Shown: in pieces, positions 123 to 53,411 of the stretch
How the letters are laid out: each line of letters starts with the position of its first letter
Position numbering within the stretch: position 1 is the first letter of the stretch
Origin: Halobacteriovorax sp. JY17
GTDB lineage: Bacteria; Bdellovibrionota; Bacteriovoracia; Bacteriovoracales; Bacteriovoracaceae
Direction: 5' to 3'
Assembly (NCBI RefSeq): GCF_002753895.1
Contig: NZ_NJER01000002.1
Span: forward strand, 553,989 to 617,988
DNA length: 64,000 bases
Notes under the pieces: model-generated
Told to the model about the DNA's origin: nothing
The model's input: the letters and a program-made list of their open reading frames with translations, nothing else
Database searches by the model: none
Position numbers and translations under genes: made by a program

Positions 123-3100
123 TTGAAGAATTTCTTATCACTATTTCTTTCTATCTGCGTTGCCTCCTGTGTGGGGACGGTAGATGACAAAAATTTAGAT
201 ACGACTAAGACAGCTATCTCCACAGAGAAGAAGCTAGATTTTAATGGTATTGTAGATGCTCAGGCAATTTCTGATTCTAGAGTTGCCGTATTCTTTAATG
301 CTGTTGCAGGTGACCCAGCTGATTTTTCTTACCAAATTGTTGTTAATAATTCTCAAAATCCAATTAATGTCAGAGGAGATAGTTTAGAAGTAAATTCAGC
401 AGGGCAATATACCTATATTGTAACAGATCTCTCTCCAGCAACTAAGTATGCATTCAATGTTAACGTAAGTGGTGCAGATGGTTCTAGTGGGGAAGGTTCA
501 CTAAATATTTATGCGACGACGTTTTCTAATAAGACGTGCGACTTTGAAGGGGTTTCTTCTGTTGATGTTCCTGCAGGTTCTGGAGGAAAAACATCCTTGG
601 TTGTACGCTGGGTCCCTGCGGTTACAAGATCTACAAGTGTGGTTTATAAGAATATTCAAGATCCTTATAAGTATGTCATTTATAAAATTGATGCTTATGG
701 AGGATCTGGAAATCTTTTTAATGACTCTTACAACAGTCCTGATAAAGAGGTTGTTGAAATTCCTGCAGGTGGAACAACAGAGTATCGTTTTCCTGGTCTC
801 GATTCTGGAAAGAAGTATTACTTTGGAGTTAGATGTCTTCATGAAGGATATAAATCAAATCCATCATTATTAGTTGAGAAGAACTTAAAAATTATTTCTC
901 AAACAACGAGGGATAATACAGCTATTTTTGATTGGCAACCAACAAGTGTGAATATTATTACTCCGAGTGGGAAAAATGGTGAGAAGAGTAGAATCTTTAC
1001 TTGGGAATCAGCGGCGGGTGATTTCTTTAATTATAGATTGTACTACCAAGGTTATACAACTGACCCTTCTCTTGTTCCTGATCCATTTACCGATGTAACT
1101 TTGGCCGACCCAGAATCAAAGATATATAGAACAATTAATGCTGAAGATGTTTCTTATGAATTGAATTTAACAGATGGAGATAAGTATAAGTATTATCATA
1201 TGAAGCTTATAGCATGTGCTACATCTCAGTGCTTAAGTGGTCAAAGAATTGGTATTGATTCGACTTATTTAATTACGAAGCAAATAATTCCTAAAATTGC
1301 TCCTTTTCAAGGGATCCAGAAAATAGAAAACCCAAAATCTGCTACGGCTGTTGATTCTATTTGGATTAAAGCTGAAGCGCCTGCGATGACGGAAGGACAT
1401 GCTCATAGGTTAAATCTTTATTGCTTAAAGGATGGTGCTGACAAGTCTACTAGGTTCTTAAAAAGAGCGGATGGAACTTTTGGAACTGGTGCTGACGATA
1501 GAGGAAGTTGTGCAGATCTTACAGTTGCTGGAACAGTTCCAGCAACAGAAGCTCAACTCTATGCCTTTACGGAGCTGGAGATTAGTGGAGCTAAAACGGA
1601 TGGAACAACTTATTGCTTAATGATGGTACCTGTTTTAGAAAATATAACACCAGCATATTACTATGAAGATATTGGTGGTGCCTCTATAAGATGTATTACA
1701 CCTGAAATTGTTACTCCAAAAATTTATGAGTTTGCAGGAAAAGATTCTTGTAGTCTCATTGGATCAAGTAGTTCTCAGTTGGATGTTAACTGGTCTCAGC
1801 CTGGGGGGGGGATTTATAGTGGATACTATGTTTACTATAAGGATGAAGAAGTAGGAACTAAGTTTAATTTTGCTGCAGCTCTTCAAGCACAAGAAGATGT
1901 AGACGATTCTGAATATTTTACACCAGTTGATATCGCAAACCGGACAACGTATACAAGTCGACTTTCTAATCTCATCCCAGGGCATTCTTATGAGATTGGA
2001 GTTCTGACATATGTTGATGTTGGTGGTGTAAAAAAGTTTTCAGAAGGAAACCTAAATACCTATTCTTGTACTGTTCCAATTCCTGAATACTCATTTCAAG
2101 AGTGGACAGGTGTAATGGCCCTCGGTCCTAAAACAAATGAGCTCTATCCAAAGAATATGAATGCATACTTTGTTCAAGAGTCATTAGATGCAATGAATAG
2201 ACCATTTGAAGTTTTAATGAAGGAGATAGGAACTCCTGCTGACTTTGATGAAGAAGCTGCCGATTCAACACCAACTTTTGGACTAGATAATGAATATGTA
2301 AAGACAGATCTCTACGGCAGTGCAAGTGAGTTCAATGGTACTTATGGTTCAACAACAAATTCTGAATTCATGAGTACTGCTTTAAAATATTCAAATACAG
2401 GGGTTATTAAATTCGCTTTTAAAGACGTCTTGATAAATATTGATGGAACAAGTGTAAATCTTTCCGATTATGCTATTAATACCATAGGACTTCCTGCTGC
2501 GAAGAAAGATAGAAAGTATGGTTATAAAATCTTAAGATCAGAAGATAATGGAACTTCTTGGGTTGATATTACGAAGGGGAATTTTGCATATCAGAATGCA
2601 ACGAATGAAGGACTTGTTGTCGCTTCAAATATTCCTAAGGTTAGGCCTCATGCGGGAGAGGATTTACCGGCTGGTAATGAATGGATTATTAACTTTACGG
2701 ACTATTCAGTAAAAGCTGAGAAATTATCATCGACTTATACTGAGAGAGCGAGAATCTATCAGTATAAAGTTGTTCCTATTTTTGATGGGAAAGAGTTAAC
2801 GATGGTATCATCTTCCAATAATCCTACTCATAATATTATTAAGATTACTCTTCCGCCGCCGAATATGGCACTTGTTCATAGATGGATGGCGAATAGAACT
2901 TGGTGTCGTGAGATCGGAAGAAATCCAAATACTGCTGAAGGTGTAAACTACTCTTGCTCTTATTCTGGGCTTGGCTCTCAGGGGGTAACTCTTCCATGGA
3001 GACTAGGACAGACTGTTATTGACTTGGGAGGAGATTTACTTGTTGATAGATTTGAGCTTGGTTGTGGATTTTCAAGAGGAGATACTACTCAAGATCAGTC

Positions 3101-5282: not shown

Positions 5283-5320
5283 ATAAAAAATTAAATAAAG
5301 AATTAAATTGGACGTTAGTG

Positions 5321-8300
5321 ATGAAATTCTTAAATTTTAAAATTTTTAAAAAGCAAAGCTTTCTATTGCAGATTCTTTGCCTCTTTGTTTTGGTTTCCTG
5401 TAATGGAGCAGGTGAATCTGGCGATGGGGTGACTATTCGCACCGGTGAAATCTTTAATAAAGCGAAGGTTTCGGTTGATAAACCTCTTGAGATTGGAGAT
5501 ATTATCACCGGTAGTGAAGCTGTTAAATATCTTATTACAATTAGAAACGATTCAAATTTTGAGTACACAGATATTGGTGTTGATTTTAAAGTCAATGGAG
5601 ATGGCTTTAGTTATAGTAAAGACGAAGAAGGAGCCGATAATGGATTTCCTGGATACGGTGGAACATGTGGTAAGAAACTTTCTAGTAAATCAACCTGCTT
5701 AATTCGTTTAGAGTACTCTCCTCTTAGATCAGGTGAATTTGAATTTCCTTTCGTTGTAACATTCAAAAACCTTGTTGATGTTGAAAAGTATGACTTTAAA
5801 ATCACTGCCACAGCAGGACTTCCTGCAAACTTAGTTTTTGAATCAGGGACAACTGTAAATAGTCTTGGACCAACAGAGCAGACGGATTCAAGTGTGAGAT
5901 CAGCGCTCTTTATCGTAAAAAACACCGGTGGTTTAAGTGCTAAGAATATTAGTATTGAACTTATTGAGGATATTCCAAACTCAGAGAAGGGATACTCTCT
6001 AAATAATATAGACTGTCCTGATTACATGGGACCATCTGAGAGCTGTCAGGTTAGGGTAGACTTTTCTCCTAAAAATAATGGAGATAATGATGCTCCCGTT
6101 GACTATAGTTCAAATTTAAAGTTTAGCTATAACAATGAGCCCAATAGTGCACGAGTGGCATATCTAAATGCTTACTTCTCTGCCCTTTCAACTAAAATCC
6201 AGGGAGTGTTAACTGCTCCAGCGAGTATAAAGAATGTCTCATATTTAGATAAAGATGGTTATGCTGAAATTACTGTAGGTAAAACATTAACTAATACTTT
6301 CAAAGTGACCAATACAGGATATAAAAAAGCTCAAGTTAGAGAGATTCTGATTTATGATAAGGACGCTAATAACGACTACTCAGATGATTTATTGCTCGCA
6401 AGATGCCTGTTAGATTCGGGAACATTTAAATGCTTTAATCCTGACTTCTCTGGAGGACAAGTTGAAATATCTAAGACTGATGATAAATTTCCTTGGGAGA
6501 TATTAGATACGAACAACTGTCTTGGTGGAGAGATTGCTGGACCTCCTCCGGGGGCGACCCTTGGAGGGTCGTGTATTTTTGACTTAAAATTTCACCCATC
6601 TGTAATGACTTACTATGATAAAGAGTTAGTTAGTGGGAATATGGAATATAATAAAACAGTTTCAGCTGAGAATTTAAAACTTAAAACTAGTTATGAAAAT
6701 ATTAGACTTGAGTTTCTCTATGATAGTTACTGGAAGTCTTTTGTTTGTGATGATATGAGTACTTACTTAACACCTTCTAAAAGCCTTTCATGTGTAAATG
6801 ATAAAGACATGTTTAAGGTTTCAGCTGTAACTCAGTCTGCAGGACTTTTGGGGATTAAGAATAATGAGCTTGCTTATGGATTAGAAAAATTAACATTTTT
6901 TGAAACAGATAGAATAAACCCAATAGAAGTCGAAGATAATTATTATTTCTATGATATTGGAAGGAGAGCCTTAATTCTTGATGAAGACTACTTCACGAAA
7001 ATTTCTTTCTTAGTAGAAAATAAAGGCTCAACAGGACTTAGGGTTACTAAGGTTTATATGTATGATGAATCTAATAATGAAATAGCTCTCCTCGCTGACA
7101 ATTCTTATAATAATTTAGGAAGCTATTTTAAGAATGTAAAAACTTCCTGTAATAAAGACCTTGTCATGGCCTTAGGCGAAACTTGCCAGTTTTCTGCTGA
7201 TTTTGTTCCTCTCTATATAAATGAACCGGGATTTGATTATACAAGTTATTTCTATGATGACGGAAAAAACTATCGTTCTATTTTCTTTGAGTATGAGGAT
7301 GGAACTTGTATCGAAGATAAGGGCGATGGAGCAGGTTATGTAGACGATGCAAATCATGATTATTGTTCTGAGGAAAAGTCTGGCGTCAAGAGAACGAAGA
7401 GAAGTATAGAGTTTAGAGTAAAAGGAACTCTTATTCAAAAGGGAATGCTTGCTTTTTCTAAAGATGCCTCAGCTGTTAATGCAAACCTTATGCATTATGA
7501 CTTTGCTGAAGATGGGGTAAGAATCGGAAAGAATCCGAATCGTGTTGTCGTGGGGGATAGTACAAAATACCATGAAGTTAAAATAACAAATGTAGGAACA
7601 GGTCCTATTCCATATATTAAATTTAAGCAATTTAATCCTCTCTTTCCAAATGATGAAGAAACATATCTTCTAAAGCAAACCGACGAAAGGTTTCCTTATG
7701 AATTGGTAAGTATGCCTCCAGGTCCTAAGAAGGATTGCTTGACAATATTTGATAAGAGGAATTTTAGTGTCGAAACACTTGATGGAAGCAGTAACCCGAC
7801 ATCTTATTTATTTGATACCTTCTTGTATATGAAAGAAGGGGGAGCGATACCTGCAAGAAATCAAGGGGCTGATATAAGTTTAATTAGTGACATTCAAAAT
7901 CTTACTAATTCAACCCATCTTAATTCTGGAGAATCCTGTTATCTTAGAATTCATCTTTCGCAGAAGGAGGAGGCAAGAAGAGTTCAAATTGACCCTGATG
8001 CAACAGAGACTTTGCTTTTTAGGCTAGAGAAGGAAAAAGCTTCGGGTATTAATCCTGCCGTAAAGGCGTACGACTTAAAAGACTTCTCCCCTTGGGGCGT
8101 TGGGTGGGCACCCAGTGAACTTTCGTTTGAGTACTTTAATGGAGATTCATCTGCGCCTAATGATGAGCAAACAGTGGTGGGATTAGGGTCTTTAGAGACA
8201 ATTACTGGGCCAGAGGGAAATGATAACTATAAAGTGCATGTTAATTATACTTCAAAGGGTGAAATAAGACCTCTGAGCGTAGGGCCTTTTCAAAGTGCAG

Positions 8301-11233
8301 TTATGTATAGGCCAGACTACTATATTACAGAAGTTCCATATGACTCATCTTTCTTTAGTCCCGAGCCAGCCGATTATGAGAATTTGGCGCAACTTGATAA
8401 TAATGCTTTTGGGCTAGACTTTATAGATGAGCTCTTCATTTTCTTCCAATTTAATTCAGCATCTCCTCTTGATAGAGATTCAAATGTTATAAAAAGGTTT
8501 CCTAATATAAAGAATAAAGCTAAGTCATTAAAGCTTAGTAATCAGGATGGAGATGGAACTCCACATTTTGAGTACTATGTGCATTTTGGAACTTTTGAAG
8601 CAGGGAGTACTCATAGCGGGTTGAATCTAGCTCTTAGCTCTCGTGGTTTATTAACGGGTGTATCAATAGATTATGATAGTGATGCTGGAACTCTCGATGA
8701 TCCTAGTTGTGGAATTTCTGAAGTTTCGCCACTGAACAGTACTCTTAATGAGTTCACTTATACTCCGAATTTTTCTGCAGGAGATGTTTCTATTTGCGTA
8801 AGAGTCTTAAAGATTTCCTATGAAAATGGAGTGATTCTTCCAAATCTTTCAAAAGAAGTTGAAACTTACAAGGTTATGTTAGTGGCTGAATCAAGAAGAA
8901 ATAGTTCTGTCCCGAACACTGCATTTAAGTATAGGGATTATAATGCAGATGGAACAGAGATACTTCCTGAGTCTTGGGCTCCATTTACTGTAGGAATGAA
9001 TAATGATTCTTCTCTTGCTGCAGATTTGAATTTTGTTTCAATTGTAGAAACTGAAGAAGCTCCAGGGACAAAGGGTCTTTTTTACGCAAAGAAAAAAATA
9101 GAAATAGAAAATTTGGCGGGAAGTGCAGACTTAAGAAATATTAGAATTTATTTAAAAGATAAGATTGGGCCTGAGGATTATGGTGCATATGTTATGACAG
9201 ATTCTACTGTTGTAAATAATGGGCTAAAAATTGAAAATGGTAATAATTGTACAGGTGGTGGAGTTATTTTATCGGCTGGAGGGAAGTGTAGCTTTGATGT
9301 CACTTATAATCCGACAGGAGCTTCTGGAAGTACTGCGGACTTCTTCTTGGTAATAGCTTATGACCTATTTTCTGGAACAGAAAATGGTCTTCCTGTAACT
9401 CAAAGGGTTGAGAAAATTGTAAACTTAGAGCTAGCAGCAAATTTTCCTGCTCATGCAAGTGCTGTGGCCTCCGCGGATTATGAAGTTCAAACTGCTGCCA
9501 ATGGGGTAGACCAAACAATAAAGGTTGATTATGGTAATATTCAATTAACTTCTTTCGAAGCCACTAAAATCTCTTCTGCTAAAAGTATATTTATTAAAAA
9601 CACAAAGAGTTTAAATGCTTCATTATGCAGACAATGGCAAATTTATCAATATGATGATTTTAGTATTAATGCAGATGTTTCAGGTTATCTCCAAAATAAA
9701 AAGACTTTTGTTAATGGTATTTCAGAGTTATCAGCTCCAGGAGATTATTCTGTTGATACTAATAGAGGCTATATTTATACAAAAGATATTGTAGGAGGCG
9801 GAGATATTGTAGATATTAGTGTCACTTATAAAGACGAGCCGGCTCGGAATATAACCTTTATTACAGGTGAAAATAAGCATAATATCTCTTTCGATAATAC
9901 GAAGTGCCTTCCGGTTCTTTCTGATGATTATGCTATTATTCTTGATACAAGTAAGATGAGGATTGAAGCTCATAAATCTTGCTTGTATGGAAGTGCGACT
10001 CCAAATGAAACAAATATAACTTTAGGTTTTCCACAGAATTTTACTTGTGAGTTGCGAACCTACTATAAGGCTGATTTTAGAGATATTTATTTCTCTGAGA
10101 GAAATCAAAAATACGGTTATGAGATTCGTTCAAATATGGAAGGTCAGTGCGAAGCTATTCAGTACTTTTCCTATAATAGGGAAATAAAAAGTTCAAAGGA
10201 TATTGAAATATGCTCTAATGCATTTGTTTATCCCGAAGTTAATCTAACGGCTAATGGTGCAAATAATTGGATTAATATTGAGTCTGAAAATATTGGAGGA
10301 TCTTTAAAAATTAAATTAAAAGTGGAAGAAGCATCATATGATCCAGGTACTGTTTGGGGGCCAATTACAAGTTATGCTCTTTATATTAAGCCAAAGGCAA
10401 GTACTTTAGAAAAAATTTATAAGAATGAATTTCAAACAATTACGACAACTGAAATAAAAGATGCTAGTAATATCTCATACTTTAAAGTTTTAGAGCCAAC
10501 GTATGATACTCCTGGTTATTTAACCGCGGAAATCACAAGTCTTCCTGATGGTAGTCCGTTAATTCCTGGGTTCTATTATCAATTTAGAGTTTTTTCTATT
10601 CGAGAATTAAATGGAGTGAAGTATCTATCTGATATGGGTTATGATGTTATTGATATTTTAGTTCCACCATCTAGTACATTCTACGATTTTGCAAACAAGA
10701 GACTGGTAGATACCGAACCAGTAAAAGATATTTCCGGAAGTGTGTACGAAACGTATACTCGTTCAGATGCTATTGCTAAGTGTGCTTCAACTAAGTATAC
10801 ACTTACAAAAAATGGTCTACCTTCAGTTGTAAATAAGAAATTATTCACTTCATCAGAAATTAAACTTATAAAAGAAAATGCTGAATTAGCTAATGATTAT
10901 AATTATTGGGAGTTTGCTCACTGGTTGGGAGATAGTAAGAGAGATATTGAGACCATTTGGAACTCCCATACTTTAGACCCGTTTGACTCTAGTGTCTTTT
11001 CTTATTCTGGCTGTATTGGTCCATTTGATGGAATTTGTGGACAGAGATCATATTTACCGACAGATCCGACTCCTGAACCTGCCAATTTAATGTATAACCG
11101 TGCGTGTGGAGATGATTCTGAATGCAATAAGCTCTATTCAATATATGGTGCTATTGAGTTATTGAATCAAGATTTCTATACCTATGACGACTCGCTGGAG
11201 CTCAATGCAAGATGCTGGGCAACATTACCTTAG
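5321..11233 (+). CDS. Giant lipoprotein with ASH/HYDIN-like repeats
   Basis: A 1970-aa protein. ATG at 5321 is preferred over the adjacent GTG at 5318; the ribosome site is weak. A hydrophobic signal ends in lipobox LVSC. Several modules carry the ASPM-SPD2-HYDIN pattern, in which a cysteine precedes a beta strand ending in F(S/H)P or YNP (for example SESCQVRVDFSP and GKCSFDVTYNP). These immunoglobulin-like folds serve in protein-protein or matrix contacts. The last ~200 residues are cysteine-rich and resemble the end of the first lipoprotein in style (KLFTSSEIKLIKE, final RCWATLP). It lies 38 bp after the first lipoprotein gene, probably in the same transcript. An extracellular structural or host-contact role is inferred; I recognise no enzyme motif. 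Confidence 0.85.
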   Translation: MKFLNFKIFKKQSFLLQILCLFVLVSCNGAGESGDGVTIRTGEIFNKAKVSVDKPLEIGDIITGSEAVKYLITIRNDSNFEYTDIGVDFKVNGDGFSYSKDEEGADNGFPGYGGTCGKKLSSKSTCLIRLEYSPLRSGEFEFPFVVTFKNLVDVEKYDFKITATAGLPANLVFESGTTVNSLGPTEQTDSSVRSALFIVKNTGGLSAKNISIELIEDIPNSEKGYSLNNIDCPDYMGPSESCQVRVDFSPKNNGDNDAPVDYSSNLKFSYNNEPNSARVAYLNAYFSALSTKIQGVLTAPASIKNVSYLDKDGYAEITVGKTLTNTFKVTNTGYKKAQVREILIYDKDANNDYSDDLLLARCLLDSGTFKCFNPDFSGGQVEISKTDDKFPWEILDTNNCLGGEIAGPPPGATLGGSCIFDLKFHPSVMTYYDKELVSGNMEYNKTVSAENLKLKTSYENIRLEFLYDSYWKSFVCDDMSTYLTPSKSLSCVNDKDMFKVSAVTQSAGLLGIKNNELAYGLEKLTFFETDRINPIEVEDNYYFYDIGRRALILDEDYFTKISFLVENKGSTGLRVTKVYMYDESNNEIALLADNSYNNLGSYFKNVKTSCNKDLVMALGETCQFSADFVPLYINEPGFDYTSYFYDDGKNYRSIFFEYEDGTCIEDKGDGAGYVDDANHDYCSEEKSGVKRTKRSIEFRVKGTLIQKGMLAFSKDASAVNANLMHYDFAEDGVRIGKNPNRVVVGDSTKYHEVKITNVGTGPIPYIKFKQFNPLFPNDEETYLLKQTDERFPYELVSMPPGPKKDCLTIFDKRNFSVETLDGSSNPTSYLFDTFLYMKEGGAIPARNQGADISLISDIQNLTNSTHLNSGESCYLRIHLSQKEEARRVQIDPDATETLLFRLEKEKASGINPAVKAYDLKDFSPWGVGWAPSELSFEYFNGDSSAPNDEQTVVGLGSLETITGPEGNDNYKVHVNYTSKGEIRPLSVGPFQSAVMYRPDYYITEVPYDSSFFSPEPADYENLAQLDNNAFGLDFIDELFIFFQFNSASPLDRDSNVIKRFPNIKNKAKSLKLSNQDGDGTPHFEYYVHFGTFEAGSTHSGLNLALSSRGLLTGVSIDYDSDAGTLDDPSCGISEVSPLNSTLNEFTYTPNFSAGDVSICVRVLKISYENGVILPNLSKEVETYKVMLVAESRRNSSVPNTAFKYRDYNADGTEILPESWAPFTVGMNNDSSLAADLNFVSIVETEEAPGTKGLFYAKKKIEIENLAGSADLRNIRIYLKDKIGPEDYGAYVMTDSTVVNNGLKIENGNNCTGGGVILSAGGKCSFDVTYNPTGASGSTADFFLVIAYDLFSGTENGLPVTQRVEKIVNLELAANFPAHASAVASADYEVQTAANGVDQTIKVDYGNIQLTSFEATKISSAKSIFIKNTKSLNASLCRQWQIYQYDDFSINADVSGYLQNKKTFVNGISELSAPGDYSVDTNRGYIYTKDIVGGGDIVDISVTYKDEPARNITFITGENKHNISFDNTKCLPVLSDDYAIILDTSKMRIEAHKSCLYGSATPNETNITLGFPQNFTCELRTYYKADFRDIYFSERNQKYGYEIRSNMEGQCEAIQYFSYNREIKSSKDIEICSNAFVYPEVNLTANGANNWINIESENIGGSLKIKLKVEEASYDPGTVWGPITSYALYIKPKASTLEKIYKNEFQTITTTEIKDASNISYFKVLEPTYDTPGYLTAEITSLPDGSPLIPGFYYQFRVFSIRELNGVKYLSDMGYDVIDILVPPSSTFYDFANKRLVDTEPVKDISGSVYETYTRSDAIAKCASTKYTLTKNGLPSVVNKKLFTSSEIKLIKENAELANDYNYWEFAHWLGDSKRDIETIWNSHTLDPFDSSVFSYSGCIGPFDGICGQRSYLPTDPTPEPANLMYNRACGDDSECNKLYSIYGAIELLNQDFYTYDDSLELNARCWATLP

Positions 11234-11237
11234 GTGT

Positions 11238-11264
11238 TAATATTTGTAATCATTTTGCCGATAT
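11238..11264 (+). promoter_or_regulatory. Sigma-28 (FliA)-like promoter for the 640-aa lipoprotein
   Basis: TAATATTT at 11238-11245, exactly 11 nt, then GCCGATAT at 11257-11264. The FliA consensus is TAAAGTTT-N11-GCCGATAA, so 6 of 8 and 7 of 8 positions match with ideal spacing. Transcription would start near 11271, giving a leader of only about 12 nt with AAGGA just before the ATG at 11283. Confidence 0.6.
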
Positions 11265-11282
11265 GTAGTATGAAGGATTATT

Positions 11283-13205
11283 ATGAGAGTAGATGGATTT
11301 AAAAGAAATATAATTAAACTTAAGAGTATTTATATTCTCCTGTTCTTATTGGTACTAACATCTTGTGTTGGAACGGTTGAAGATAAGAATGAGAAGACAA
11401 CATTTTCAAGCGCGGGAAAAACATTAGAAATAAACTTCTCTGGTATTGAAGATGCTAAAGCAATTTCTCATGATAAGGCAGAGGTTTCTTTCTTTCCTGC
11501 ATCTGGAGGTAGTGGAGACTATACTTATCTTATCTACAGAGATGGTGTTGTTGCTCCAATTACATACCTCGACGAATCTTTGGAAACAAATTACAAAGGG
11601 CTTTATAAAGTTACTATTAATGGACTCAAAGCGGATACTAATTATAATTTTGAAGTTCAGGTTCTTGATAATGAAACAACAGCTAGAAGTTTATCTACAG
11701 AACTTAGGGCAACTACAACCTATACCAAGCAGTCTTGTGACTTCTATGGTATTGCCAATGTTAAACTACCTCCAGGGTTAGATTCAACTTCAAGTATTAT
11801 TGTAAATTGGCCAGAAGCTACAGTCGTAGGTACGCCAACAAAGCCATTTGATGGAGACCCTTATCAGTATGTTATCACGCTTCTTGACAGTGATTTACTT
11901 AGTGCAGATGATATGAATGATGTAAGTTTGAATGACTCAGATGGGCGCTTTCAATATTATCAACAAAGTGGGAATTCCAAGACTATTTATGGTCTTCAGC
12001 CAAATAAGAAATACTTTGTTCAAGTTCGATGTGAGCACGTAGGTTATACAAATAATAAAGGAGACCTTACCTATAAGGTCGAATCTAATACAAATATCTT
12101 AGATATTACAACTTCATCTGGGTCTGCAGGTGATCTTGTATTTGAAGATGGACTCTTTAACGTTAAATTAAATTCAGGTGATCTTGGGAAACAGAGTTTT
12201 ATTGCGAGCTGGAAGGCTGCTGCAGGAACGTTTGATCATTATCGTCTTTATTATAGAGCAGGGGCATTGACAACGGGAACGGTTCCGCCTTTGTGTGTAT
12301 ATGACGGTACAACAGGAACGTATTGTTCAAAAATAGCATTTGATCAAACGACAGCTGTTGTTAGTGGATTAGTGCAAGATGCAACTTATAATGTTCAATT
12401 ACTTGTTTGTGTTGATGCAAACTGTACCCCAGAAAATAAGAAATCAAGTTCTATAATACCTATTACAATGAAGCCATCTCTAGGTGTTTTTGGGGGAATT
12501 ACTGGAATTCTTCGAGGTCAAAACACTAATGAAGTTAATAAAATGAAATTTAAGTTTGATACTCCAGATTTTTCAACAGGAGTCATTGATGGCCTAATTG
12601 TAGAATGGGTAGATAATAGTGCTGGTAAGATATTAAATGACCCTGATATATTAAATAATACGGGGATTAGTGTTAATGAAGATATTGATTTAACAACTGA
12701 TACAGAAATTGAAATAGATGGCTTTAATCCATTTGCATCAAATGATTACTGTTTTAACTTATATCCATACATTTTAAATAATAGTGGTGTTCGTGAGTAT
12801 ACACCGGAAGGAAATCCGGATGTTACAAGCTATTGTATATCAACAGATCTAAATACAGGCGTTCATATTAAAATGCCTGATGATTTGGGGGCTACTTGTC
12901 TTCCAACATCTTCGTACTCTATAAGGGTCGATTTTTTATCACCACTTTCGGGTGTGTTCTCTCATTATGAAGTCTTCTGGAAGAAAGGGAATTTGGCTTC
13001 ATTTAATTTAAATGATGCCATTGCAGAAACTGCAGGATATTCTAGAATATTAGTTCCAAATACAGATTCATCAGTTGAGCTTGCACCACTTCTTTCAGGT
13101 CAAAATTACACGATTGGAGTTGTCGGTTACTATTTCGGAGCAGACGGTAATGTATATCGAACAGCGCTGAATAGTTCAACAGTTTCTGAATGCACGACAT
13201 ATTGA
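11283..13205 (+). CDS. Fibronectin-III-like lipoprotein, short paralogue of the first gene
   Basis: A 640-aa protein beginning at ATG with AAGGA upstream. The signal peptide ends in lipobox LTSC, followed by VGTVEDKN, almost identical to the first lipoprotein. Most of its length can be matched by eye to the N-terminal ~650 residues of that protein (INFSGIEDAKAISHDKAEVSFF against DFNGIVDAQAISDSRVAVFF; shared KQSCDF/KTCDF segment and FDHYRLYYRAG/FFNYRLYYQG). It therefore has the fibronectin-like half without the FGE-like half. It has its own sigma-28-like promoter, so it may be expressed with motility genes. Role unknown; probably an outer-membrane-anchored structural partner. Confidence 0.85.
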   Translation: MRVDGFKRNIIKLKSIYILLFLLVLTSCVGTVEDKNEKTTFSSAGKTLEINFSGIEDAKAISHDKAEVSFFPASGGSGDYTYLIYRDGVVAPITYLDESLETNYKGLYKVTINGLKADTNYNFEVQVLDNETTARSLSTELRATTTYTKQSCDFYGIANVKLPPGLDSTSSIIVNWPEATVVGTPTKPFDGDPYQYVITLLDSDLLSADDMNDVSLNDSDGRFQYYQQSGNSKTIYGLQPNKKYFVQVRCEHVGYTNNKGDLTYKVESNTNILDITTSSGSAGDLVFEDGLFNVKLNSGDLGKQSFIASWKAAAGTFDHYRLYYRAGALTTGTVPPLCVYDGTTGTYCSKIAFDQTTAVVSGLVQDATYNVQLLVCVDANCTPENKKSSSIIPITMKPSLGVFGGITGILRGQNTNEVNKMKFKFDTPDFSTGVIDGLIVEWVDNSAGKILNDPDILNNTGISVNEDIDLTTDTEIEIDGFNPFASNDYCFNLYPYILNNSGVREYTPEGNPDVTSYCISTDLNTGVHIKMPDDLGATCLPTSSYSIRVDFLSPLSGVFSHYEVFWKKGNLASFNLNDAIAETAGYSRILVPNTDSSVELAPLLSGQNYTIGVVGYYFGADGNVYRTALNSSTVSECTTY

Positions 13206-13327: not shown

Positions 13328-14677
13328 ATGGTATACGTTAAGAAAATAACCACATTCTTTCTTCTCTCTTTTTTCTGTCTTTCTCCAGTCTTTGCGCAGA
13401 AGTATGGGAAAATATTTCTCAATGAAGATGGAATACATTTACTTAATGGACAGGAGAGAAATTACGTCAAAAAAAGTGTTTATGAAGTGGTTTATTATAC
13501 AGGCGTCTTTGATTTAATAATCGGTAAGTATAAGAAGAGCTTAAGCAAGGAAGAGTCTTTCTCCATTGATATTAATATAAATGCAACTTCTAAGGATCAG
13601 CAATTTGCCAATGTGAAGCTTGGGCTTAGAGAGATGAAGACAAATAAGCCTATTAATATTGTTGAATCAAAAAAAGTTCCAAGAATTAAGCTTCAATATA
13701 CAGTACGAAAACTCCTCTTTAAGCTATTTTATGAAGAGAACTATGATGAAGAGAATGATCGGGTAATAAATAATAAGGTTATTCCTGTGACAAGTCAGAT
13801 CACTCATCCTTCTGAACCAGACTCGGTCAGTAAAGATCCTGAGCAAGAGACTAGTGAGGGATCACCTGTAGAGGGGATGGAGGAAGCAATTGTTGCTGAA
13901 GAAAGTGCTAATGATCCAATTGAAGAAGAGGAAGAGGATAAAGCTAAGAAGGTAAAGAAAGATAAAGATAAAGAAGTTAAGATATCAAAGTTTGATTCTC
14001 CAGATATTGATGTCACGGTAGAGCAGGAAGTAAAAATTTTTAAGCCTACATCTTTTGAAGTTCATTCTAAGTTTTATGTAAATTTGGGGCAAAGTACGGA
14101 TGCAACGGAGTCTTCCACAATTATTGAAACAAGAACAGATACCAAGCAATTGAGATTCGAAATTGGAAGTCGGTTTCAAATAGGTGACCGTAGCGACTAT
14201 TACGATATAGGGTTAAGTGTCGGACAATTATTGGGTGAAAATAAGTACCAGTTGAGTGCAGGATTTAAATTTCATCTTGAGTATGCTCTAAATCTTTATA
14301 AGAGAAATTTATATATTATTCCATCTATAGAGTACGAAACTCTTTCATTTGCCGATCTTAGTACAAAAGGGGATGGTATTGTACCATGGAATAATAAATT
14401 AATGTGGTTTGGTGCAAAAGGAAGAGTAAGTCTTTTCAATGATAGATTGGAAATTTCTGGTGGCTATGCAAAAAGTTTTATTGGTGATTCAGATCTTGGA
14501 AAAAAGAGTGAAACTTTTCCAATTGAAGGATCTAAAGTAATGGTTGGAGCGATGACCAAGGTTTACAAGAAATTAGGTATAGGTGCTGCTTATAATATCG
14601 TTAGCTTAACAAGTAGTGCTAGTAGTTCATTTAAAGCAGATTATGAATCTTTTCAAGTATTATTAACATATAGGTAA
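13328..14677 (+). CDS. Outer-membrane-type beta-barrel protein with charged linker; first gene of the FliF-FliG-like operon
   Basis: A 449-aa protein with a signal peptide ending near SPVFAQ. Residues 25-140 form a mixed alpha/beta periplasmic domain. Residues about 155-225 are a low-complexity linker rich in Glu, Ser and Lys. The last ~200 residues alternate polar and hydrophobic residues in strands separated by turns (FHLEYALNLYKRNLYIIPSIEY, GKGRVSLF-like strands) and end in QVLLTYR, typical of a small outer-membrane barrel. The ATG at 13328 lacks a strong ribosome site. It begins a run of six genes that touch or overlap, so it probably anchors the complex in the outer membrane. No named family is recognised. 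Confidence 0.8.
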   Translation: MVYVKKITTFFLLSFFCLSPVFAQKYGKIFLNEDGIHLLNGQERNYVKKSVYEVVYYTGVFDLIIGKYKKSLSKEESFSIDININATSKDQQFANVKLGLREMKTNKPINIVESKKVPRIKLQYTVRKLLFKLFYEENYDEENDRVINNKVIPVTSQITHPSEPDSVSKDPEQETSEGSPVEGMEEAIVAEESANDPIEEEEEDKAKKVKKDKDKEVKISKFDSPDIDVTVEQEVKIFKPTSFEVHSKFYVNLGQSTDATESSTIIETRTDTKQLRFEIGSRFQIGDRSDYYDIGLSVGQLLGENKYQLSAGFKFHLEYALNLYKRNLYIIPSIEYETLSFADLSTKGDGIVPWNNKLMWFGAKGRVSLFNDRLEISGGYAKSFIGDSDLGKKSETFPIEGSKVMVGAMTKVYKKLGIGAAYNIVSLTSSASSSFKADYESFQVLLTYR

Positions 14678-14680
14678 TTG

Positions 14681-15214
14681 ATGGAACTAAAAGAAAAATT
14701 TGAATTTATTGAACGAGTCGCAGATGTAAAAGTATGGGAAGAAAAAACTACTCATATTTTATATCTTGGAGAAAAGCCAAAACTTGTTGCAATGAAAGAG
14801 AAAGTTAATGATACATTCTTCGAAGTAAAGAAGTTTCTTAAGATGGTTTCAAAGTCTGAAGTTGAAATTGATTTTACTTGTTCACCTGTAGACTCAATAG
14901 ATGATTTGAATGAAATAACGGCAGATCTTTTTGAGCTAATGAAAAAGTGTACTAAATTAATGTCCATTGAAGGAATAAGTTATCTTGTAGAAGTGAATCT
15001 ATCTTATGATCTGGAACTCTTCATTTCTGGTGAAGTTAAAGAAGGATTAAAGAGCGTGAAGTCTTTACAGGAAAAGGTTCCTGTAAGCGATCGACTAAGA
15101 ACAACTCCAAGACTTTATGGAAAGAATGGAATGTGGAAGAATTTTGTTGTTAAATGTGAGTTAGAAAAATTTAAAATATCTGAAAAAACAAAAAGTAGAG
15201 GACTAGAGTTATGA
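14681..15214 (+). CDS. Small cytoplasmic protein of unknown function in the FliF-FliG-like operon
   Basis: A 177-aa protein without signal peptide or membrane segment. ATG at 14681 is chosen over the TTG at 14678, which sits directly after the previous stop. It is rich in Lys, Glu and Val and looks like mixed alpha/beta (CSPVDSIDDLNEITADLFELM is a clear amphipathic helix). Its stop overlaps the next start as ATGA, indicating translational coupling. I recognise no family. Being the only soluble cytoplasmic product in the operon, it could be an adaptor on the inner face of the complex. Confidence 0.75.
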   Translation: MELKEKFEFIERVADVKVWEEKTTHILYLGEKPKLVAMKEKVNDTFFEVKKFLKMVSKSEVEIDFTCSPVDSIDDLNEITADLFELMKKCTKLMSIEGISYLVEVNLSYDLELFISGEVKEGLKSVKSLQEKVPVSDRLRTTPRLYGKNGMWKNFVVKCELEKFKISEKTKSRGLEL

Positions 15215-16704
15215 TTATGATAAATAAAATCCTAAACAATTCATTGAAAACATTTATTGTTTTAGCTCTTATTCTTTCAAGTTCGTTAGCTGACGTGAAG
15301 ACTCAGAGGATAGATAAAGTTTTAAATAATACGATGACTATCTCGATGGAAAAGTTTTTATCACTAACAAATTATCTCGAAAGACATAATTATATTTATA
15401 GGCATGACGCTAGAGAAATTCTAGCCGTTTTTAATACGGTAGATCGGGTTGATATTGATCGCTTAAATGAGTTTGGAACAACGATTGATAGTCTTAGAGA
15501 GGAGATCAATAGGAATCCAAGAGTTAAAATTGATGTAAAGGAAAGAGTTGAAACGCAGGTTAATGAAATTCTGGCCATGATTCAGCTCGCCCTAAGTAAA
15601 AGGGATTCAATTTTTAATGTTGATAGGATTAATCAGCAAATTGCAGTCGCAGAGCGTAAGCTGGCAGATGCTAAAAAAGTTCGAGAATCTTCAGCTAAAG
15701 TGATTGTAAAAAAAGAAAAAGCAAGTGCTACTCTTCCAATTGGTCTTGGGGCTTTACTAATTATTTCATTTGCCATCTTTGTGTACGATCGCAGAAGATT
15801 GGGCGTAAAAATAAAAAGAATGAAAAAACAATTATCATTATCTTTTAAGAAAATTAAGAGTGTTGAAAAAGGAAATACTTTAAGTTCAAGTTTTGTGAAA
15901 GTTGTTGAAGCTTTAGATTGTCCCATATCAGTTGTAGTAGATTTAAAAGGAAATATACTAAGCTCAAGTAAATCATTTGAAAGAATGTTCTCTAGCTATT
16001 TTAATTTAAAGAGTGATAATTGGGATACTTTTTTTGAAAACAACTTCTATTTAAGTAAAAACAATGACAATAAACCAGGTAATTATAAGTTTAGAAAAAA
16101 TGGTTTTCTAAATATTAGTGTAACATCTCAACTTATCGCTTCTGAAGAAATCAGATTTTTAACTTTTTCTCTAATTGATTCTGAAGAGTTAATGGCGATA
16201 AAATCTTCTGATTTGTCTAGGTTAAATAATGGTGTTTCATCGGCAAATGAAGTATTTGAAAATGCACTAACTAAATTTTCTAAAGTACATCAACTAAATA
16301 ATATCGTAATAGATCAAAAATCTTTTGAAGGTGAGATTGCAACCTATTCTCATGTTGAAAATCTTCAAGAGATGTTCTATCGAATGCTTCAGTTTGCACA
16401 AGTTTTTGATTCTGAAATGAATAATGAGAGAAGAATTAACATGAAATTAGAGAGAGTCGAAAGTGTTCTAAAGCTCTCTGCCGTAGTTGAAAATACAGAA
16501 TTCAATTTAGATTCAAATAGCAGAATCAAAGATGGGATTAGAGAGCTTTCTAAGTTTGTATCGGAAGCTGATGGAGAATTTAGAGTCTATAAAGAAAGTA
16601 TTAGAGAAAAGACAAATGTTGTTTTTGAGTTAAACGTATATGATTCCGAAGTTGCTTTTGAAAATAGAATAACAACTGTGGTGGAAAATGAAAGTCTTAA
16701 TTAG
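15211..16704 (+). CDS. Bitopic membrane protein with periplasmic helices and cytoplasmic PAS-like domain
   Basis: A 497-aa protein. Residues 1-28 are a signal sequence or first membrane anchor. Residues 30-170 are helical and charged, with heptad-like stretches (probable coiled coil). Residues about 174-192 form a membrane segment (LPIGLGALLIISFAIFVYD) followed by a basic stop-transfer stretch. From about residue 225 a PAS-like fold appears (CPISVVVDLKGNILSSSKSF), then a long helical tail. There are no histidine-kinase or GGDEF motifs. It overlaps the previous gene by four bases and the next by 17. The layout suggests coupling of a cytoplasmic signal to the periplasmic machinery; this is inference. 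Confidence 0.8.
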   Translation: MIMINKILNNSLKTFIVLALILSSSLADVKTQRIDKVLNNTMTISMEKFLSLTNYLERHNYIYRHDAREILAVFNTVDRVDIDRLNEFGTTIDSLREEINRNPRVKIDVKERVETQVNEILAMIQLALSKRDSIFNVDRINQQIAVAERKLADAKKVRESSAKVIVKKEKASATLPIGLGALLIISFAIFVYDRRRLGVKIKRMKKQLSLSFKKIKSVEKGNTLSSSFVKVVEALDCPISVVVDLKGNILSSSKSFERMFSSYFNLKSDNWDTFFENNFYLSKNNDNKPGNYKFRKNGFLNISVTSQLIASEEIRFLTFSLIDSEELMAIKSSDLSRLNNGVSSANEVFENALTKFSKVHQLNNIVIDQKSFEGEIATYSHVENLQEMFYRMLQFAQVFDSEMNNERRINMKLERVESVLKLSAVVENTEFNLDSNSRIKDGIRELSKFVSEADGEFRVYKESIREKTNVVFELNVYDSEVAFENRITTVVENESLN

Positions 16705-17305
16705 TCTATTTCTTTTGATTATTTCGAGTAATTCTTTTGGGAAAGACTTTTCCGGAATTACATCCTATTCAATAGGGATGGTAAATATTGGAGTTACTGA
16801 GAATGAGAGTTCTTTAGAATCCACTGATGAGAATGTTACTCCTGGAGAGGAGAAGAAAAGTTCGGCTAAAGCAGTATCAGCAATAAGTTTTAACTTAAAT
16901 TATGAATTTAGCTTTAAACAGAAGAGATCTTACTTTGTAAAGGCAACAGTCCCTATGATGACTGCAGATGGTGCAGGTCTCTTTCTTGGAGGCGTAGGTT
17001 TTAATTGGTATTTAAATGATTTAGGGTCTATTTACAGAGCAAATATCGGCGGTAGTGAAATTGTTATGGTTCCAAAGTTTAGATACTGGTGGGGAGCTAA
17101 TGCTGGAGTGGGTTACTTATTATACAATACAGAGTCGGCTAAAAAAAGTGATATCATTTTTGATTTAGGTATTCATGGTGGGGCTGGTTATAACTTTGGT
17201 GAGAAGTGGGGAATGAAGGGGGAGGCTATTGTTGGTCGTGGGACTGGTGTAGCATCCACTACTATGAATATTAGAATGTTCTTCGGTGTGACTTATTTTA
17301 TTTAG
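16688..17305 (+). CDS. Small outer-membrane beta-barrel-like protein
   Basis: A 205-aa protein with a signal peptide (cleavage near SSNSFGKD). After a short acidic stretch (residues about 38-62) come glycine-rich alternating strands (SFNLNYEFSFKQ, GGVGFNWYLNDLG, MNIRMFFGVTYFI). The protein ends in hydrophobic/aromatic residues, as outer-membrane barrels do. Its size fits an 8-strand barrel of the OmpA/OmpW type. The start codon lies inside the end of the preceding gene, so the two are translationally coupled. It is probably the second outer-membrane component of the operon. No enzyme motif is seen. Confidence 0.75.
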   Translation: MKVLISLFLLIISSNSFGKDFSGITSYSIGMVNIGVTENESSLESTDENVTPGEEKKSSAKAVSAISFNLNYEFSFKQKRSYFVKATVPMMTADGAGLFLGGVGFNWYLNDLGSIYRANIGGSEIVMVPKFRYWWGANAGVGYLLYNTESAKKSDIIFDLGIHGGAGYNFGEKWGMKGEAIVGRGTGVASTTMNIRMFFGVTYFI

Positions 17306-17312
17306 AGGAAAT

Positions 17313-17915
17313 ATGAAAATTATCTACTTATTAATAATCTCTTTTCTTAGTGGGAATGTATTCGCTGGAAAGGTAAATTTAACTTCTACACCTGAAGGTG
17401 CTGAAATTTTTGTTATCAATCAGAAAGCAGGAAATAAAAGGGCCATAGGTAAGACTCCTTATGTTGCTGACTTTAATGCTTTTATGACAGAAGTGGGACC
17501 TAATGAATCAATTCAGGTAAGTATCTGGAAGCCTGGTTTTGAAGAATTTAATATTATTGTTCCTCCAATAACAGGATCAGATGTACGAATTAATGCAAAC
17601 CTGAGAGTCGAGAAGAATATTAAACTTACTACAGACTTTGATTTTCTTGTTTCAGACCTTTTTGATGCTTTAAGGATGACTAGATTGAAGGATTTTCAGT
17701 CCTCTAACGAAAAGCTTGATTTACTTATTAAAAAATTTCCTCACTTTAGTGTTGTTTACGAAATGAAAGGAATGAACTTTTATTTAAATAAAGATTTTAA
17801 AAGATCTTTGAACTTTTATAAAAAGGCTTTTTCTGTAAATCCAAAAAATAGAGAAGCTTATAGAATGATGACTTACTTAGAAAAGAAATTTAATATCAAA
17901 AGCCAGGGAATATAG
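17313..17915 (+). CDS. Periplasmic PEGA-domain plus TPR-like protein
   Basis: A 200-aa protein with a signal peptide ending at VFAG and a good AGAGGA ribosome site. Residues 20-95 fit a PEGA domain (VNLTSTPEGAEIFV, then IGKTPYVADF, then WKPGFEEFNI), a small beta fold common in surface and peptidoglycan-associated proteins. Residues about 110-195 form helical pairs with a TPR signature (FQSSNEKLDLLIKKFPH, then NKDFKRSLNFYKKAFSVNPK). It is a likely scaffold between outer- and inner-membrane parts of the complex. It follows the barrel gene by 7 bp and precedes the FliF-FliG-like gene by 1 bp. Confidence 0.8.
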   Translation: MKIIYLLIISFLSGNVFAGKVNLTSTPEGAEIFVINQKAGNKRAIGKTPYVADFNAFMTEVGPNESIQVSIWKPGFEEFNIIVPPITGSDVRINANLRVEKNIKLTTDFDFLVSDLFDALRMTRLKDFQSSNEKLDLLIKKFPHFSVVYEMKGMNFYLNKDFKRSLNFYKKAFSVNPKNREAYRMMTYLEKKFNIKSQGI

Positions 17916-17916
17916 C

Positions 17917-20061
17917 ATGTTTAAAAGACTTTTTGCTTTAACAGTAATCTTGATTTGCGGACTTAGTTTTGCTAATTCAAATGATTTGCAGCTAATGCCC
18001 AGCCTTGAATGGCAAAAACAAAATCTAGAAGAAAATATTCATTCTAAAATAGATCGTATTTTAAAAAGCGTAATCAAAAAAGATCAATATAATATTGATG
18101 TTGAAGTATTAACAAAGTCTCAATCTGAACCTCAATTCTATGACTCTCAAAAAAAGAATAAACCTCTTGGAGGCTTAAGTCGTTCTGGAGATATTACGAA
18201 ATCAGAGGCCATTGAAAAGAAGAAAGAAGAGGAAAATCCTGAGTTAGAGAAGGTTACCTCAAAAGCACAGATTAAATTTGACGATGTAAATCCAGCAGAA
18301 GAGTCGGAAGATATTGTGACTTTTTCCAAATTTGGTATTCAGGCGCCTTTAGTCGATGATTTTAAAGATTTTCAGCCTGATGGAAAAATTGTTCTTACAA
18401 TGCAGAGCTCTGATGATGGTTCTAGAATAAAAAAATTAAAAGAAGAATTTCAAAGAAAAGAAGATGATTTCAAGCATAAGTTAAGAGAGATCCAGTCTGC
18501 AAATAATATATCTCCAGTAGAACAAATGTGGAAATACAATAATAGTGTTGATGTATTTAAAAATCTAAAGGCAGTTAATATAACAATCAGGCTTAGTACT
18601 GCACTTAGCTTAGAAGTAAAGCAAGCTGTTAAAAACTATGTAAACTCTATAAGATTTAATCTAGGAAAAGTAATTCCAGTGATTAAGTTCGAAAATGCTC
18701 TCTTAGGTGCTGACACAAATATTCCTACTCGAGAAGACAAGATTAAAGAAATACTTAATTACTTTGGTAAATTTAGTACTTTAATTGGAGTTTTAGTTGG
18801 AATGATACTACTTGGATTCATTGGTAAGAGTCTTATTAATAAGTTCTTTGAATTGAGTGCGGCACAAAGCAATGCTCAAACGGTAAAGCTTGAAGGACAG
18901 CAGGATCATAATAAAGATGATGACGATTCAAGTGAACCAGGGGCTCCTGTTATTGGAGGTGAAGCTGGTGGTGCAGGAGATTTGACTGGTGAATATTGTG
19001 GGGTTGAAAGATTTAAATCTTATTCAAAAACCTCAGCCAAGGATGCAGCTCTTTTAGTGAAAGGATGGTTACAGCTAAATACGAAACAGTCACAGTCTGC
19101 TCTGAGAGCTCTTGTCCAACAATTAGAAAATGTTGATTTGTCTGAAGTGTTTTCCATGTTAACAGATCGAGAAAGAAATGAGTGGAAAGACTTATTGAAT
19201 AAGCCATTAAGTACTGCAGAACTAGCTTCAGCTAATAAATATATTTCAAATGAAGTTGTACAGAGAATAATTATTCCTAATGTTATTACGGACCCTGAAA
19301 CATATGACTTAATTATTAGAATTAGACCTGAGCAGGTATCAGAACTAATTGAGAAAAAACCAGAGATTAGTAGTGTATTGTTAAACGTTTTAAATACAAC
19401 ATTCTTAAATAAAGTCTTGAGTCACTGCGATGAAGAAAAGAGAGGGAAGATCGTTGACTCCGCCTTTGAAGTCAGAGAGCAAGATATTATCAACTCTCAG
19501 GATAAGTTAAAGGAAGTATTACAAGAGTATGTACAGACATTTGATAAAATACCTTTCATTGATAAGGTTATTACTATCTTGCCAGATGCAAGTCTTGATA
19601 TAGAATTGTCCCTTTATGAGAAGCTGCATAAGAATACTTCCGTAAAAAGAATTAAAGAAGTTGGTATGCTTTCTTTCCCCTCTTTTTTAATAGAGAGATT
19701 TGACGAAAAGAATTTAAAGGCAATATTAAGCGAGTATGATCTTGAGAAGAAAGTGAAGATGCTTTTAACAGCAGATGAAGATATTAAGAAGAAGTTCATG
19801 GATATTTATGCTCCGAGTGGATCAAAAGCAAACGATTTATTGAGTCTCGAATTTGAAAACTACGAGAAAGATGAAAGAGAGCTTGAGAAACTTATGAATG
19901 ATAAAGATGCTCATTGGAAGTCTTTCGTTGACTATGTAAGAAAGAGAATAGTGAAAGATAAAGAATTATTAAACGCAGCAGAAGAAGCTATTGACACGTG
20001 GACTCATTCACTGGGTGGGGATTCTAGTTACGATAATGTTGAAGAGCTTAAAGTTGCTTAG
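17917..20061 (+). CDS. FliF C-terminal half fused to a FliG-like domain (flagellar MS-ring/C-ring-like fusion)
   Basis: A 714-aa protein. Residues 1-20 are a signal peptide. KIDRILKSVIKKDQYNIDVE (about 44-63) matches the FliF periplasmic ring region (pattern iqslLepvlGpgnvrvrV). NITIRLSTALSLEVKQAVKN (about 221-240) resembles the ring-building motif of FliF/YscJ. Residues 285-305 are a membrane helix. A charged linker follows, then AKDAALLVKGWL (about 374-385), which resembles the FliF C-terminal FliG-binding tail (VALVIRQWM in Salmonella). Residues 390-690 are helical with a FliG-C-like segment (FLIERFDEKNLKAILSEYDL, pattern F.DLLLLDDRSIQRVLREVD). It therefore looks like FliF without its first membrane helix, joined to FliG. 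No FliM, MotA or export gene is nearby. Family assignment by pattern is fairly firm; function is unknown. Confidence 0.75.
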   Translation: MFKRLFALTVILICGLSFANSNDLQLMPSLEWQKQNLEENIHSKIDRILKSVIKKDQYNIDVEVLTKSQSEPQFYDSQKKNKPLGGLSRSGDITKSEAIEKKKEEENPELEKVTSKAQIKFDDVNPAEESEDIVTFSKFGIQAPLVDDFKDFQPDGKIVLTMQSSDDGSRIKKLKEEFQRKEDDFKHKLREIQSANNISPVEQMWKYNNSVDVFKNLKAVNITIRLSTALSLEVKQAVKNYVNSIRFNLGKVIPVIKFENALLGADTNIPTREDKIKEILNYFGKFSTLIGVLVGMILLGFIGKSLINKFFELSAAQSNAQTVKLEGQQDHNKDDDDSSEPGAPVIGGEAGGAGDLTGEYCGVERFKSYSKTSAKDAALLVKGWLQLNTKQSQSALRALVQQLENVDLSEVFSMLTDRERNEWKDLLNKPLSTAELASANKYISNEVVQRIIIPNVITDPETYDLIIRIRPEQVSELIEKKPEISSVLLNVLNTTFLNKVLSHCDEEKRGKIVDSAFEVREQDIINSQDKLKEVLQEYVQTFDKIPFIDKVITILPDASLDIELSLYEKLHKNTSVKRIKEVGMLSFPSFLIERFDEKNLKAILSEYDLEKKVKMLLTADEDIKKKFMDIYAPSGSKANDLLSLEFENYEKDERELEKLMNDKDAHWKSFVDYVRKRIVKDKELLNAAEEAIDTWTHSLGGDSSYDNVEELKVA

Positions 20062-49365: not shown

Positions 49366-49381
49366 TTTTTACTTTTAATGT

Positions 49382-53318: not shown

Positions 53319-53395
53319 GGTCTCGTAGCTCAGTTGGTTAGAGCATCTCCCTTTTAAGGAGAATGTCCTGTGTTCGAGTCACAGCGAGATCACCA
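53319..53395 (+). tRNA. tRNA-Lys (UUU), copy 2
   Basis: Identical to the copy at 49289, including encoded CCA and anticodon TTT. Confidence 0.97.
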
Positions 53396-53411
53396 TTTTT
53401 ATTTTTAATGT

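Follow-up and report, generated by a model that had tools for sequence, protein, structure and literature searches.

A FliF- and FliG-like fusion protein with its own MotA-MotB pair as a candidate non-flagellar motor in Bdellovibrionota

We analysed 64,000 nucleotides of the genome of Halobacteriovorax sp. JY17 (contig NZ_NJER01000002.1, positions 553,989 to 617,988; hereafter the window), likely a predatory organism, going by its named relatives. Six open reading frames (ORFs) on the same strand, encoding proteins C, D, E, F, G and H of 449, 178, 497, 205, 200 and 714 amino acids (aa), fill positions 13328-20061, and the last of them, H, carries an RBM3-like domain, one membrane helix, a FliF-like tail and a FliG-like region in a single polypeptide. 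Because this FliF-FliG-like fusion stands beside its own MotA/MotB, it is likely to be a separate ion-driven rotor that moves outer-membrane parts, and we consider it probable that H and the adjoining MotAB form a stand-alone rotary motor without a flagellum. An earlier reading of the letters alone (the sequence-only reading) had proposed a flagellar-ring-derived machine with outer-membrane parts. That core proposal is supported by sequence profiles and by the predicted fold, both of which match FliF and FliG, so that the outcome named beforehand as refuting it did not occur, and the MotAB pair just outside the window turns the "ring" of that reading into a likely motor.

Architecture of H and its kinship with FliF and FliG

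H (17917..20061, plus strand, as are all window features below unless stated) is the likely rotor subunit. As the sequence-only reading had it, the protein has a signal peptide and a single membrane helix. The signal-peptide-like helix, possibly an uncleaved anchor, spans residues 1-20 (17917..17976; helix 1-19 by hydropathy, 3-20 in the AlphaFold2 (AF2) model), and the membrane helix spans residues 284-308 (18766..18840; AF2 and hydropathy). Between them, the predicted fold contains an RBM3-like domain in two halves (residues 25-66, 17989..18114, and 217-264, 18565..18708), interrupted by an insertion (67-216, 18115..18564) whose predicted local distance difference test score (pLDDT) falls below 50 at residues 78-167. 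Behind the membrane helix follow a FliF C-tail-like stretch (363-388, 19003..19080) and a FliG N-M-C-like helical array (389-694, 19081..19998). H thereby has the layout of the FliF family, in which RBM3 with an internal insertion is followed by a membrane helix and a cytoplasmic tail; the RBM3 of FliF itself is likewise split, into residues 252-273 and 378-443 (PMC6079021).

Single-sequence annotation overlooks H, since Pfam gave for the window protein alone only a sub-threshold match to MgtE_N (E 0.0071) and one match at chance level. A search of solved-structure sequences with H alone returned no match. Profiles of the H family were compared with 22 FliF and 21 FliG sequences and 258 reversed or shuffled controls at an independent E-value (i-E) of 0.01. 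The main H profile, made from 55 members of at least 560 aa each, matched one of the 22 FliFs, six of the 21 FliGs (best 2.9e-6) and none of the controls. The FliF match, to FliF_L319, is colinear (model 34-325 against FliF 235-554, i-E 6.3e-6), and FliF_L256 scored 0.037. An earlier 60-member profile had matched two FliFs (1.5e-6 and 3.1e-3) and five FliGs; the two matching FliFs were already known as matches from searches made before the profile test. Five of its members were short, namely three split forms about as long as a FliG (355-356 aa) and ORFs of 453 and 541 aa. Neither the split forms nor the 453-aa ORF has a Pfam FliG match over the cut-off (for the latter FliG_C 1.6e-4, just under), and the 541-aa ORF, a shortened copy of an existing member, was outside the FliG Pfam scan.

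The three types of H contribute differently. The window type alone (profile A1, 37 members) matched none of the FliFs, 3/21 FliGs and none of the controls, and the profile from other families of the phylum (A6) matched 19/21 FliGs and no FliF, a further attempt against FliF giving E 0.13 only. The Bdellovibrio-type profile matched all 21 FliGs (best 2.3e-23) and no FliF. Full-length profile matches connect the three types to each other (E 4.9e-20 and 5.4e-22). In profile-profile alignment with hhalign, the window type aligned with FliG at E 3.5e-5 and, weakly, through its 364-397, with the FliF tail (FliF 523-554, E 0.027), at the very stretch that the sequence-only reading had called FliF-tail-like; a similar stretch, judged by eye, ends a FliF-like protein of Neomarinimicrobiota. 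For the Bdellovibrio type, the alignment with FliG extends over some 280 columns (E 2.4e-15), and that with the FliF profile takes in positions 235-433, which cover RBM3 and its insertion (E 7.2e-5). Singly scanned Bdellovibrio members, including P0032, carry FliG_N, FliG_M and FliG_C above the Pfam cut-off, and all three were seen in a relative named as Bdellovibrio bacteriovorus. The folds nearest to the predicted structure of H are FliG and the RBM3 ring of FliF, and OsmC and MamM folds are also similar to its N-terminal part. Profile searches with controls, the hhalign comparisons, whose FliF-tail signal is weak, and the fold prediction thus bear out the two-part nature that had been read from the letters of the 714-aa protein.

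Three other accounts were discarded. Among window-type members in Pfam at E 0.01, MgtE_N is found in 16/37 versus FliG in 1/37, but a pure MgtE_N or armadillo likeness is outweighed by the profile matches, hhalign and the FliG Pfam domains of Bdellovibrio members. H is not merely a divergent flagellar gene, because the genome has separate FliF and FliG elsewhere. An assembly artefact was rejected in view of 37 long members at separate loci that align end to end and of Bdellovibrio members on single-contig genomes; the window H itself sits on an 861-kb contig.

The MotA-MotB pair, gene order and separation from the flagellum

The MotA (260 aa) and MotB (237 aa) genes lie on the minus strand, with the motA start 171 bases before window base 1, and three large fn3/Ig genes and C-G stand between the pair and H. 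MotA has the MotA_ExbB domain (3.4e-16), and MotB has both MotB_plug (1.9e-13) and the OmpA peptidoglycan-binding domain (2.6e-12), the trait of FIT stators. A 2025 stator study describes MotB with a plug and an OmpA-type domain as the flagellar kind (PMC12505986), to which the loci of the present module appear to be an exception. H is encoded in 43 of the 129 genomes of the order, and this MotA subclass (>200 bits) occurs in all 43 of these and in 3/86 without H, one of which (G070) has a partial H. The 200-bit line was chosen after the gap had been seen between the genomes' best matches of 210 and 149 bits; the remaining MotA matches in the 129 genomes are all below 150 bits. At 58 H loci, three of them with the split form and some drawn from MotA-bearing stretches that were included deliberately, the distance from H to MotA is at most 20 kb at 50 and at most 3 kb at 37, while a G homologue stands within 1 kb at 55 and an F homologue within 3 kb at 48; the Fisher P of 4e-31 computed alongside these counts ignores kinship. 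Next but one to motB (L132:4201-5766, minus strand) is a gene for a 521-aa protein with repeated "LDxLxxL"-like stretches and without a Pfam family, and proteins of this kind also occur near module genes in several genomes.

The residues expected at a stator-rotor contact are partly retained and partly changed, which suggests a related but altered interface. Two stator-facing charges of FliG, D288 and K264, are not retained in H. The FliG-MotA contacts in E. coli numbering are R90/D288-D289 and E98/R281 (PMC12505986). The hhalign alignment places R281 and D289 of the stator-facing FliG helix at K637 and E645 of H (19825..19851). In the window type the first is K in 30/37 and the second E or D in 37/37, and in the Bdellovibrio type the corresponding places are K/R in 32/33 and E/D in 33/33. 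On the stator side, the place of R90 is basic in 27 of 28 module MotAs and that of E98 acidic in 6/28 (E in this genome), with a loop shorter by one or two residues.

Gene order is conserved among relatives. The arrangement of MotB-MotA diverging from the large upstream genes and C-H is repeated in G003 (Halobacteriovorax sp. GB3), G045, G047, G030 and G119, and in G002, where MotA lies at a contig end. The set MotA-MotB-G-H-F recurs across the phylum, with the five genes contiguous in other families (G322, G323, G310, G242, G210, G193, G233, G251 and G337). At E 1e-5, a match to the A1 profile is present in 84 of the phylum's 368 genomes. Flagellar FliGs of about 340-353 aa account for some of these matches, certainly in G120 (an ORF also matching FliG_C) and G341 (with FliF adjoining), and that A1 picks up flagellar FliGs is itself evidence of the kinship between H and FliG.

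The A1 search of the phylum did not list an HD100-like genome, for which the Bdellovibrio-type profile was required. At E <1e-100 this profile matched 12 of the 66 genomes in the family of Bdellovibrio, and ORFs of 340 and 349 aa gave two more matches, both weak. The Bdellovibrio gene set comes in two types, both present in G152 (Bdellovibrio sp. ZAP7). In G139, a 3,782,950-bp chromosome that we take to be Bdellovibrio bacteriovorus HD100, the positions 2.913-2.920 Mb carry genes for MotA, MotB, a protein of 205 aa, a G homologue that is lipoprotein-like and an H homologue of 577 aa (L358:7421-9154) with FliG_C (4.6e-10), FliG_M (1.4e-7) and FliG_N (2.1e-5), all above the Pfam cut-off. The similar genome G145 has F and a 325-aa gene between G and H, where the ORF caller kept an opposite-strand ORF in G139. 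Public annotation names such proteins "FliG C-terminal domain-containing protein [Bdellovibrio bacteriovorus]". The stator pair of the G139 module is, by position, presumably MotAB2 (Bd3021/Bd3020). B. bacteriovorus has three MotAB pairs, all described as flagellar stators (PMC11323537), and its module would take in the second of them.

Unfused counterparts are found in metagenome-assembled genomes (MAGs) of Neomarinimicrobiota. Three of them (L284, L285 and L290) have a G-like protein (447-457 aa), MotA, MotB, an H-like protein (623-629 aa) and a FliG (309-310 aa) in this order, and L306 has the same order in a shorter form, with an H-like protein of 433 aa. The 629-aa protein of L284 shows a signal-like start, an RBM3-like region, a membrane helix and, by eye, a FliF-like tail. 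Its YscJ_FliF_C match (1.1e-4) is just under the cut-off and those of the relatives P0119 (7.1e-8) and P0126 (1.6e-9) are above it. The 309-aa protein encoded next to it carries each of the three FliG domains. This order would be expected if H arose by fusion of two neighbours, or if the two were split from a fusion. Other variants were seen as well. The split forms of 355-356 aa (L110:5794-6861, L121:6419-7486 and L237:5156-6226) hold the FliG-like half of H only and adjoin MotAB and an "LDxL" protein. A second H-like protein of 453 aa (L109:12473-13834, minus strand; FliG_C E 1.6e-4, just under the cut-off) is encoded near the module of G023. A possible further module in L289, L296, L307, L323 and L279 has a G homologue, MotA, MotB and then a 550-630-aa protein of similar layout, followed by an F homologue in L289, L296 and L323; this protein had no Pfam match in L289, the only one scanned, and none of the five was counted as H.

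The operon lies outside any flagellar cluster, as had been claimed from the letters alone. The flagellar FliF and FliG of this genome are on contig C3, FlhA is about 44 kb beyond the window end, and no significant flagellar family was found in 30 scanned window ORFs, the remaining, mostly smaller ones being outside the scan. A genome search with PF01514 (YscJ_FliF, RBM1-RBM2) found the flagellar FliF and one sub-threshold site, both on C3, and nothing at H. In a MotA tree, 17 flagellar MotAs, including those of this genome and HD100 MotA1, form a clade together with HD100 MotA3 (support 98/99) that contains none of the 28 module MotAs; its sister is the Neomarinimicrobiota stators, with the root and the long TolQ branches unsure. 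The position of HD100 MotA3 (L361:7480-8346) is unsure because of its very long branch of 4.02 changes per column. The 94% complete genome G067 has two modules, module-type MotAs only, a weak FliF match and no FlhA match. Among four Neomarinimicrobiota genomes with MotA-MotB-FliF-like-FliG, FlhA was found in one and gave no match in three (MAGs of unstated completeness, one of 1.1 Mb). Apart from its flagellar FliG, the present genome has, outside the window, three further FliG_C proteins (C1:1207331-1207645, C2:231018-231338 and C1:1298778-1299092; L142, L143 and L144). Two are ORFs of about 145 aa with little beyond the domain, the third has about 370 aa, and similar ones occur in relatives.

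The proposed machine, its rivals and known systems

We picture the stand-alone motor as follows. H is predicted to be exported by way of its signal peptide and anchored by its membrane helix. By homology, the RBM3 domains would form a periplasmic ring as in the S-ring of FliF, and the FliG parts a cytoplasmic ring. MotA5B2 stators, which the OmpA-type domain of MotB would tether to peptidoglycan, would drive the FliG ring with ion flow. Going by the constant gene linkage, rotation or force may reach the barrel-like F and C by way of G, and the large Ig/fn3 proteins could receive it too. The final step, the least certain, would be an output of force on the surface of the cell, with gliding or movement on the prey surface as its likeliest form. 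Gliding is the leading candidate role because B. bacteriovorus can glide when flagella and pili are absent, and a 2026 review describes the machinery responsible as unidentified, naming the identity of its motor as a major open challenge (PMC13104615). The module supplies testable candidate genes for that motor, present in B. bacteriovorus itself, and the second MotAB pair, currently read as a flagellar stator, would be reassigned.

Several observations compete with the gliding role. The aglQ gene bd1480 is reported to be upregulated on surfaces (PMC9140294), H. marinus SJ is described with a single motAB pair (PMC11323537), and H went undetected in 86 of the 129 genomes of the order. The module therefore cannot be a requirement for all members of the group. 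A bolder version, which we hold only tentatively and think will more probably prove wrong than right, is that Bdellovibrionota and, separately, Neomarinimicrobiota have a minimal, outer-membrane-coupled motor of MotAB and RBM3-FliG, without export apparatus or filament, that is the missing gliding or prey-surface motor; since the module stators branch outside the flagellar MotAs, such a rotor may be the sister of the flagellum or older.

Two other explanations are, in our estimate, equally improbable. By the first, the module is an accessory of the ordinary flagellum, with H as a second rotor or a base scaffold, and the extra MotAB pairs serve the same flagellum. All MotAB pairs of B. bacteriovorus are indeed described as flagellar stators (PMC11323537, PMC12827227), and a FliF match is present in 42 of the 43 genomes with H. 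This explanation fits poorly with G067, which has two modules and only a weak FliF match without FlhA, and with the three of four Neomarinimicrobiota module genomes that lack an FlhA match (the fourth has one). The module MotAs also fall outside the flagellar clade, the recurring partners are barrel-like and lipoprotein-like proteins instead of rod or ring genes, and FliF is detected in 121/129 genomes of the order, H being undetected in 86. By the second, to which we give the same low probability, H and MotAB are a ring and channel that does not rotate continuously and serves either as a sensor of load or of contact with a surface, or as a power source for secretion or outer-membrane transport. 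The related ExbBD and TolQR have other tasks (PMC12505986), genes for a histidine-kinase-like and a FecR-type protein adjoin the window operon, and K264 and D288 are lost. The charges retained at R281 and D289 point instead to torque, as do the plug and OmpA anchor of MotB and the near-exclusive pairing with a MotA subclass of its own. That the likeness to FliF and FliG is convergence of KH-like and armadillo-like folds in an unrelated envelope protein is very unlikely and strongly disfavoured, because the commoner MgtE_N matches of the window type and the OsmC- and MamM-like N-terminal part are outweighed by the colinear FliF match, FliG matches with zero control matches, the FliG Pfam domains of Bdellovibrio members and the MotAB linkage.

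Among known systems, the flagellar motor shares with the module an RBM3-like fold, a FliF-like tail, a FliG N-M-C-like array, MotA, and MotB with plug and OmpA domain. It differs in that H fuses the FliF-like and FliG-like parts and has neither the first FliF helix nor RBM1-RBM2 (YscJ_FliF). In the module locus, genes for export, rod, hook or filament were not found, and the partners are barrel-like and lipoprotein-like proteins instead. Laboratory FliF-FliG fusions of Salmonella, likewise one polypeptide, assemble rings. Those are full-frame fusions of complete flagellar proteins, whereas H occurs in nature, has a truncated FliF part and is encoded at a non-flagellar locus (PMC6079021). Myxococcus Agl-Glt resembles the module functionally, having an ion-driven motor of the MotA/TolQ family, a trans-envelope complex and a surface adhesin. 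It is set apart by its description, since a FliF or FliG ring is not described and neither word occurs in the review (PMC13104615). Its characteristic parts are a TolQR-type AglRQS motor and Glt proteins; the motor pair of the module is MotAB. AglRS is placed among the non-flagellar GIT stators (PMC12505986), whereas the module MotB has plug and OmpA. The GldLM motor of type IX secretion gliding shares a 5:2 rotary motor for surface movement and resembles MotAB, but is described as not homologous to it (PMC13104615). The injectisome inner ring (SctJ type) also counts among the closest known systems.

We found no description of this system in open-licence papers. Every motor part belongs to a known family, and it is the combination that we rate as new, because we know of no machine of this composition and because H and its locus do not show the features that define a flagellum. 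A FliF-FliG-MotAB machine without type III export would bear directly on the evolutionary assembly of the flagellar motor.

Other genes of the operon and its surroundings

ORF coordinates confirm that the six genes touch, overlap by 4 and 17 bases, or are separated by 1-7 bases. C (13328..14677) is the larger barrel-like outer-membrane protein, with 31 homologous ORFs in 29/41 sources, the window counted, and F (16688..17305) the small one. Both barrel-like proteins of the sequence-only reading thus have matches, although below the Pfam cut-off (E 0.0039 and 0.03, respectively). The same applies to G (17313..17915), a secreted PEGA/TPR-like protein directly 5' of H, for which the PEGA (0.013) and TPR (0.0064) matches are sub-threshold in the window protein; the Bdellovibrio homologue (L358) matches TPR_2 at 4.7e-9. 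E (15211..16704) is bitopic, with a membrane helix at about 171-193 by hydropathy, as had been suggested, and has no Pfam family that would substantiate the proposed PAS-like character; Pfam likewise gave no family for proteins K and L. E is confined to near relatives, with 13 homologous ORFs in 12/41 sources, the window counted, in an iterated search from E 1e-3, a stricter starting threshold recovering nothing beyond E itself. For D (14678..15214), all Pfam matches were sub-threshold and sequence search found no homologue; near relatives carry an ORF of similar size in the same slot. Its true start is unsure, TTG being the start codon given for the 178-aa ORF.

Upstream of C, positions 123-13205 hold three large genes whose products are lipoprotein-like and have fn3 or Ig-like domains. 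The first gene after the divergent motAB pair encodes a B-type protein of 1719 aa (123..5282; fn3 6.7e-17). It is followed by A, a large lipoprotein-like protein of 1971 aa with a HYDIN-like Ig domain (5318..11233; Pfam 2.9e-6), and by a second B-type protein of 640 aa, lipoprotein-like with fn3 repeats (11283..13205; fn3 2.9e-20). A and the latter are conserved neighbours in the gene-order comparison. Downstream of H, a histidine-kinase-like protein is encoded on the minus strand (20079-22640), followed by a FecR protein (22712-23485), and in a Bdellovibrio locus a FecR-like gene, judged by eye, lies 5' of G (L244:6834-7607). Further along the window, a tRNA-Lys(ttt)-tRNA-Glu(ttc) pair occurs in two copies about 4 kb apart (49289-49459 and 53319-53489).

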